A stretch of DNA of 42,010 bases from a virus, in the IMG/VR virus record IMGVR_UViG_3300042330_000214, positions 1 through 42,010 of that record. One strand, given 5' to 3'. Of the stretch, positions 9,850 through 38,083 are shown one piece after another (positions within the stretch are counted from its first letter, which is position 1; every line of letters begins with the position of its first letter). The notes under the pieces are model-generated. The model did not search any database. It was not told the origin of the DNA and saw only the letters and a list, made by a program, of their open reading frames with translations. Both the position numbers and the translations under genes were made by a program.

Positions 9850-9855
9850 AAATTG

Positions 9856-9946
9856 TAGTCAGGACAGGATTCGAACCTGAACTCCCCATTACAGGGAGCG
9901 TTATACTGCCCCCGAAGCGGCAGTGACACCCATTTGCCACCTGACT
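9856..9946 (-). tRNA. tRNA with long variable arm, anticodon uncertain
   Basis: Acceptor strands AGTCAGG and CCTGACT pair perfectly (7 bp), with discriminator A and no encoded CCA. A D arm (GCA/TGC, loop with GGG), a long variable arm (CTCCC/GGGAG) and a T arm (CAGG TTCGAAT CCTG) are visible. The anticodon stem ACTGCC/GGCAGT closes an 8-nt loop, GCTTCGGG, one base longer than normal, and U33 is not at its usual place, so no anticodon can be named safely. A class II type (Ser/Leu-like) is suggested by the variable arm. It may be a functional phage tRNA, a four-base decoder, or a degenerate tRNA-like element. Confidence 0.65.
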
Positions 9947-34280: not shown

Positions 34281-34295
34281 TAACGTATTTTTATG

Positions 34296-34325
34296 CAAAT
34301 ATACAAACTATTTTAAAAATGCAAA
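34296..34325 (-). promoter_or_regulatory. Promoter for the scaffold and capsid genes
   Basis: TTTG (34325-34322), an 18-nt spacer and TATATTTG (34303-34296) on the minus strand match the Bacteroidota consensus closely. The ATG at 34280 follows at 15 nt. It allows high expression of scaffold and capsid independently of the portal gene. Confidence 0.8.
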
Positions 34326-37517: not shown

Positions 37518-37571
37518 ATTAATTAAATTTTAAAGTTAAAAATATCCGACACCTTCGCTATGTCTTGAGTG

Positions 37572-37600: not shown

Positions 37601-37692
37601 TTTATTTTTTTTAATCTTAATCTTAATTAAACATAGTTTCTCCTTTACTCTCTACAATTACACACTGACTGAATAATTATAGTTAGTTTCTA

Positions 37693-37764
37693 TTATGGCA
37701 AGTAATAAGCAATGTAAACACTTCCGCTCTCTTCCACTTTAAAGGTGGCATGGATTTTAACCAT
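37693..37764 (-). CDS. Possible 23-aa ORF in the intergenic region
   Basis: The frame begins with ATG directly after a TAG and encodes MVKIHATFKVEESG followed by SVYIAYYLP, which looks like two beta strands. It may be a remnant or a real small peptide. No promoter is obvious. The rest of 37601-37922 holds no other candidate I can support. Confidence 0.25.
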   Translation of the reverse strand: MVKIHATFKVEESGSVYIAYYLP

Positions 37765-37922
37765 CTATTCGTTCATTGATTTTTCCCTTTCGGTTTGTAG
37801 TTGCTAGTTGTCAGGAGTGGACATTTGCTAGTCTTATATCAATGTTTTACACTACTTTTTATTTTAATTTACTCAGCTATTTAAGTCTGATTTTGAATGG
37901 TTCGACTATACAACCGTACTGA

Positions 37923-37968
37923 TATAAAAGAAAAAAGCCTTTGCACAAGGACGAGGTCTGCAAAGGCT
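37923..37968 (-). terminator. Rho-independent terminator of the intergenic RNA and tail-tip genes
   Basis: Minus-strand AGCCTTTGCA (37968-37959) pairs over 10 bp with TGCAAAGGCT (37945-37936) and is followed by TTTTTTCTTTTATA. The 13-nt loop contains GACCTCGTC, complementary to a site 60 nt upstream in the same RNA. Confidence 0.88.
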
Positions 37969-38040
37969 AAGGGCGTCTTATTCTTTTAAAATTTTAACGC
38001 TATGTTTCTTTTATACCGACCTCGTCAAAAGTACAATATG
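37925..38040 (-). ncRNA. Probable small RNA (about 110 nt) with pseudoknot potential
   Basis: A -7 box (38052-38045) starts a unit without an ORF that ends at the terminator. GACGAGGTC near its 5' end (38026-38018) is exactly complementary over 9 bp to the terminator loop (37958-37950); GCGT/ACGC (38000-37997 with 37976-37973) can pair inside. The first pairing is available before the terminator stem is complete. It could be a stand-alone regulatory RNA, a switchable terminator, or a processed 3' end of the tail-tip message, whose last stop is at 38084. Confidence 0.6.
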
Positions 38041-38044
38041 ACTG

Positions 38045-38052
38045 CAAATATA
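38045..38052 (-). promoter_or_regulatory. Candidate promoter of the intergenic RNA
   Basis: TATATTTG followed by CA, within AAATAGTTTGTATATTTGCA. Nearly the same stretch forms the capsid-region promoter at 34296-34325. The distal TTTG of the -33 element is not conserved here, so strength is uncertain. Confidence 0.5.
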
Positions 38053-38083
38053 CAAACTATTTTTTAATTTGAATAATATTTTT

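Follow-up and report, generated by a model that had tools for sequence, protein, structure and literature searches.

The preQ1-I RNA is a pseudoknotted riboswitch attenuator with a small H-type pseudoknot in the leader, and P1/P7-like phages carry the C4 antisense RNA, a short phage RNA with paired variable segments. The homing genes of phage T4 are repressed by leader hairpins and terminators; in I-TevI, segB, and mobE, the leader hairpins conceal the ribosome site, and mobE and segF have terminators (PMC2988022). Here we describe an RNA in a viral DNA stretch of 42,010 nt (IMG/VR record IMGVR_UViG_3300042330_000214, referred to as the window), which appears to belong to an undescribed class of RNAs, conserved in structure, that accompanies homing-endonuclease genes from several nuclease families, chiefly those of Bacteroidota phages.

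The RNA unit in the window and its relatives

As listed in Table 1, the unit runs from a TAtaTTTG promoter box over a 5' nine-mer and a linker to an intrinsic terminator, with all parts on the minus strand. The preliminary description of this DNA had pointed to the promoter box, a unit without an open reading frame (ORF), a 10-bp terminator stem with a U-run, and a 9-nt complementarity between the terminator loop and the 5' region, and all of these were found, the last with 9 of 9 positions complementary. The terminator consists of a G+C-containing hairpin with a 10-bp stem (37968-37936), directly followed by the U-run TTTTTTCTTTT. Its loop, GACCTCGTCCTTG, includes GACCTCGTC (S1b), which lies directly 3' of S2a and is followed by CTTG, S2b, and the U-rich tail, and the loops of the resulting pseudoknot are 0 nt (L2) and 4 nt (L3). 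The best S1+S2 pseudoknot energy was reached by none of 2000 dinucleotide shuffles, and S1a and S1b are the sole exact copies of their sequences in the 42 kb window. The 5' nine-mer S1a begins approximately 18 nt 3' of the TATATTTG box, and ~10-20 nt from the predicted start. A -33 element is indistinct at this box, and the box context TTTGTATATTTGC occurs as exact copies at 38044-38056 and 34295-34307, with 14 near matches against 5.3 expected, a number equalled by 0 of 100 shuffles. The window RNA would be a promoter-driven species of about 110 nt, with both start and transcript predicted.

Table 1. Positions of the RNA unit and the adjoining noncoding tract in the window
Feature	Positions	Strand	Basis
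-7-type Bacteroidota promoter box TATATTTG	38045..38052	-	sequence; matches -7 element TAnnTTTG
S1a GACGAGGTC, 5' strand of pseudoknot helix	38018..38026	-	sequence and covariation
L1, A/U-rich linker, 49 nt	37969..38017	-	positions 100-131 of alignment A1 same in L005
S2a AGCCTTTGCA, 5' arm of terminator stem	37959..37968	-	sequence, fold
S1b GACCTCGTC, terminator loop segment, 9/9 complementary to S1a	37950..37958	-	sequence and covariation
S2b TGCAAAGGCT, 3' arm of terminator stem	37936..37945	-	sequence, fold
U-rich tail of intrinsic terminator; predicted RNA 3' end	37925..37935	-	sequence
Region B, conserved noncoding tract of ~300 nt	37606..37924	-	no ORF kept

No ORF of at least 60 aa is present within the unit, nor downstream until 37517, and the flanking ORFs, which the preliminary description took for tail-tip and tail/head genes, gave no significant PHROG or Pfam match. 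A search of the window with Rfam 15 yielded 0 matches at or above the gathering threshold; the scores for CyaR (27.4 of 47 bits) and PyrR (18.8 of 54) were far below it. Region B is 98.8% identical in the related contigs L003 and L005 and 80% identical over ~150 nt in L054; L054 and L139 retain part of it in a different gene neighbourhood. Its folding showed no excess (z 0.35 and 0.18), and it was rejected as a structured RNA. Elsewhere in the window, ARAGORN predicted a tRNA-Pro (CGG) gene at 9855-9946 (minus strand), and a conserved hairpin, GACATAGCGAAGGTGTC, is located at 37531-37565 (minus strand) in the leader of a 191-aa gene and is kept in L006, L007, and partly L013.

Relatives were sought with the flanking genes, and six and seven viral contigs were found. 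The RNA of L003 is the same as that of the window. In L005, whose flanks are near-identical to those of the window, the S1 strands are GGTAGGTCC and GGACCTACC, in L004 they are GAGTAGGTC and GACCTACTC, and in L054, where the RNA has other neighbouring genes and follows an endolysin-like one, they are GGAGCGGTC and GACCGCTCC. In each case 9 of 9 positions are complementary, giving four different perfect 9-bp S1 pairings across window/L003, L005, L004, and L054. In alignment A5, S1 is 100% paired with both sides changed in 4 of the 9 pairs. Of 500 shuffles, 1 matched the covariation score of S1, and slid versions scored far lower. S2 is 77.6% paired in A5, a value lowered by alignment shifts, and in alignment A8 both helices are 100% paired. 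There are thus two crossing helices with compensatory changes in both, as in an H-type pseudoknot. The earlier proposal of a pseudoknotted RNA or terminator had named loss of the complementarity without compensation as the outcome that would speak against it; the relatives (four pairings, five relatives) keep the pairing by compensation, which is the opposite.

Between the window and L005, 25 of 93 RNA positions differ versus 7 of 509 positions in the flanks (Fisher p = 4e-16). These differences fall around S1a (15 of 27 positions) and in the terminator (10 of 34), with 0 of 32 in the middle. Judged by these two sequences, the paired segments co-changed while their surroundings stayed constant, and such compensated S1 change between near-identical phages is an unusual evolutionary pattern. 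A further match, between the 5' region and the U-rich tail, is present in the window, where the minimum-energy fold pairs GGUAUAAAAGAAA with UUUCUUUUAUAUC; visual inspection shows a weaker match in L005 and none in L004, and therefore this part of the preliminary description probably concerns an incidental match. The corresponding helix P1, between the U-rich tail and a 5' A-rich stretch, is strong only in the window and so was placed outside the conserved core. A switchable terminator is possible. A pattern search with AGGTCN{1,4}TAWAAAGATATTCA was discarded, as its matches were coding DNA, except in L055, which is the L004 contig.

The element is an insertion, which is absent at this site in L006, L007, L013, and L014, where the promoter and the start of the downstream gene come directly after the upstream gene. 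In L004, the insertion also contains an HNH ORF, beginning 316 nt past the RNA. A separate TATATTTG box serves the downstream gene, so that structural-gene ratios would not require the RNA. The suggestion that the RNA sets the ratio of structural transcripts found no support, given that four relatives miss the insertion, that transcription of the downstream gene has a separate promoter, and that the design mainly precedes homing-endonuclease genes, as outlined below.

Leaders of the same design at homing-endonuclease genes

An unselected scan covered 1.18 Mb of viral DNA with 1969 TAnnTTTG sites, using no gene criterion. Ten sites had an energy E < -31, against 0.67 per shuffled set, and the best of them either resembled the window RNA in type or preceded HNH genes as leaders (L058 twice, L059, L115, and L107, the last from another HNH family); the L058 and L115 genes carry NUMOD4 and HNH_3 by Pfam. 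We also analyzed a targeted set of 80 NUMOD4/HNH loci, using 170-nt leaders and 60 shuffles each. In this set, 27-30 of the ~80 viral leaders beat all 60 shuffles, with z down to -8.9, compared to 20 of 300 control leaders of other ORFs in the same contigs. A strict rule applied to 4457 ORF leaders gave 30 distinct matches, comprising 24 NUMOD4 genes, 1 other HNH gene, 1 T5orf172/MUG113 (GIY-YIG-like) gene, and 4 others, two or three of them apparently genuine. NUMOD4 partly guided the choice of loci for this last test, and the evidence for an unbiased association is therefore that of the unselected 1969-site scan. Taken together, the design serves in most cases as a leader to HNH/NUMOD4 homing-endonuclease genes, chiefly in Bacteroidota phages, and more rarely to other HNH, T5orf172, or other phage genes. 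Pseudoknot-terminator leaders were also seen before non-nuclease genes in L167 (6878), L168 (2934), and L183 (7593), one of these genes being weakly HTH-like and two having no Pfam match. Another side observation is a AAGCCAAAC/GTTTGGCTT loop pairing at ~320-420 of L136, in a terminator-like hairpin upstream of a gene resembling a BT4734-type primase.

Cultured examples exist. Flavobacterium phage FCV-1 has an S1 of GTAGTGC/GCACTAC with the terminator end ~5 nt before an HNH-like ORF, and its leader is conserved in 65 F. columnare phage records (FCV-1 and 64 others), all at least 99% identical; natural S1 variants were sought in these records, which at this identity were uninformative. Polaribacter phage P12002L has an S1 of TCGTAGC/GCTACGA and a hairpin without U-run. 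Other members come from a Flavobacterium MAG and a Gracilibacteria MAG; the NUMOD4 leader of the latter (L290), with a 10-bp S1 and an 18-bp S2, showed the top excess over shuffles (z -11.8). An Rfam search of nine phage homing-endonuclease gene (HEG) leader loci and FCV-1 returned just a tRNA and a sub-threshold match at the same place. Four contigs (L058, L145, L146, and L175) carry two leaders each, with differing S1, and orthogonality between copies in one phage is one idea for the fast change of S1.

Within the class, S1 measures 6-10 bp, L1 mostly 13-49 nt, S2 6-18 bp, and L3 mostly 3-11 nt. An inner helix of at least 3 bp framing S1b (S3) is present in 20 of 30 leaders, against 9.5 by chance with a maximum of 16. 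Among the HEG leaders L167, L197, and L154, which have conserved linkers, S1 and S2 are 100% paired; in 10 of 14 pairs both partners have changed, and 0 of 500 shuffles come near this. Non-Watson-Crick positions in S2, re-detected without preference for either pair, are G.U in 21 and A.C in 2 cases on the transcript strand (p = 3e-5), although the U-rich 3' side may contribute to this count; such an excess is what RNA pairing predicts. Two ribozyme topologies were set aside, since an HDV-like fold would need a P3 that is lacking between S2a and S1b (by reasoning), and a group I ribozyme gave no Rfam match.

S1a recurs over at least 7 nt at the start codon in 5 of 31 leaders, where 0.14 are expected with a maximum of 1, and in gut-type leaders without a U-run it is S2b that recurs at the start codon. 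These third copies suggest that there may be two output forms, a terminator or masking of the start codon. The contrast between U-run and third copy has the expected direction and is not significant (Fisher p = 0.12). Five gut-type NUMOD4 leaders (L184, L195, L200, L211, and L243) share the common motif GGATAGnnGGGAGTnnCTnCCCnnTGACAAGG; they have an apparent second pseudoknot and an S2b repeat before the ATG, and are possibly a separate RNA family, not in Rfam. A related motif, ATAGGGTmGCTCCCGAA, was found in the Firmicutes-like NUMOD4 leaders L208, L244, and L227.

A working model and other explanations

We consider it reasonably probable that these RNAs are pseudoknotted attenuators that keep endonuclease expression low, forming an undescribed phage leader RNA class, and that the window holds an orphaned member. 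Anatomy, pairing (by covariation), and gene association are established, and from the sequences we infer transcription, termination, and the direction and trigger of control. The RNA would form an H-type pseudoknot in which the 9-bp S1, joining the 5' end and the terminator loop, crosses the 10-bp terminator stem S2. RNA polymerase would deliver S1a, S2a, and S1b in that order, and since S1a is made first, S1 could form before S2b exists. S1a and S1b would pair first, after which S2b would close the terminator inside the pseudoknot. As S1, S3, and S2 are kept together, we equate the OFF state with the fully formed pseudoknot. Most transcripts would end ahead of the endonuclease start codon, so that the gene would be expressed by read-through only, and anything that opens S1 would alter its expression. 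In leaders without a U-run, the second copy of S1a or S2b beside the start codon suggests a pseudoknot that acts on translation. An opposite sign, in which S1 hinders S2 and lowers termination, is also possible from the same pairings. We regard it as rather improbable that S1 is a fast-changing code for self-recognition, by which the RNA, once terminated, would act in trans on nascent transcripts that share its S1. The number of endonuclease copies, or the entry of a related phage, would be sensed in this way, with diversifying selection keeping the pairings distinct, as in plasmid incompatibility RNAs.

Several observations count against attenuation. The loops of the window pseudoknot (L2 = 0 nt, L3 = 4 nt) are tight for 9 and 10 bp forming simultaneously without fraying, the viral NUMOD4/HNH leaders are bimodal, with the structure missing in about half, and cellular or chromosomal Bacteroidia NUMOD4 genes were rejected as carriers, with the leader in just 2 of 31. 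Moreover, no endonuclease adjoins the RNA in the window, L003, L005, and L054. The window does have the S1/S2 pseudoknot after a TAnnTTTG-type promoter that is typical of HEG leaders, but there is no start codon 4-30 nt past the hairpin, and a tblastn search of the window with five HEG proteins returned no match. In the attenuator model, the controlled gene would be missing here, with the RNA standing alone ahead of the conserved noncoding tract, and it would either have acquired a role of its own or now gate region B.

The persistence of the RNA without endonuclease in these four contigs, with S1 kept by compensation, and its own promoter and terminator would also suit a stand-alone trans-acting small RNA. 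Its pseudoknot would be a stable package that protects both ends, other RNAs would be bound by the S1 strands or the loop, and the endonuclease link would be historical. This seems unlikely to us, since neither nine-mer is matched a second time in the window, S1a masks S1b, and in about 26 of the 30 strict matches the RNA leads a nuclease gene whose start codon lies 4-30 nt past the hairpin. A leader left after endonuclease loss and without present function, as the relic of a homing element or as its hitch-hiking end, would agree with the HNH ORF in the same insertion in L004, the absence of the insertion from four related contigs, and the window lineages lacking an endonuclease gene. Nevertheless, all four variants, orphan or near-orphan, have complete S1 pairing in spite of the many differences between window and L005, and we hold this explanation to be quite doubtful.

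Any inverted repeat in RNA is one in DNA too, and I-TevI of phage T4 is known to bind an operator at the promoter of its gene (PMC2988022), so the nine-mers could be a binding or cutting site for an endonuclease or a repressor rather than an RNA helix. However, their letters vary freely and complementarity alone is kept, S1b is always a loop segment of a hairpin whose orientation agrees with promoter and gene, and G.U is far above A.C on the transcript strand, making a DNA site very improbable. Finally, unfiltered scans give many 7-9-mer matches, which might suggest chance complementarity at an ordinary terminator, but this is hardly credible in view of the 0 of 2000 shuffles and the compensatory changes in independent lineages, and the covariation refutes it.

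Comparison with described systems

No earlier description was found in the open literature searched; the main 2017 structured-RNA survey was outside that search, and a prior description elsewhere is possible. The leader design can serve as a marker for locating homing-endonuclease genes and makes the silencing of selfish endonuclease genes outside T4 testable. As with the IscB/HEARO omega-RNA, a structured RNA adjoins an HNH gene, but there is no Rfam match, the present RNA is much smaller, and the proteins are of the NUMOD4/HNH_3 homing type. With C4 it has in common that it is a short phage RNA whose paired variable segments could set specificity; it differs in that there is no Rfam C4 match, both partners lie within one RNA, and the window has no matching target. 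The preQ1-I riboswitch is likewise a small leader H-type pseudoknot with transcriptional or translational output, whereas in the present RNA no conserved ligand-pocket sequence was seen, S1 and S2 are sequence-free, and the class is not in Rfam. Similar in aim are the T4-like homing endonucleases (I-TevI, I-TevII, I-TevIII, segB, mobE, and segF), where RNA structure or a terminator likewise restrains a phage endonuclease gene (PMC2988022). In those systems the ribosome site is hidden by simple hairpins, or a terminator lies within the ORF (mobE, segF), whereas here a leader pseudoknot, with its own promoter and a fast-changing but compensated pairing, joins the 5' end to the terminator loop. 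The aim is thus alike but the structure is different, and therefore the RNA described here is not a member of the T4 elements.
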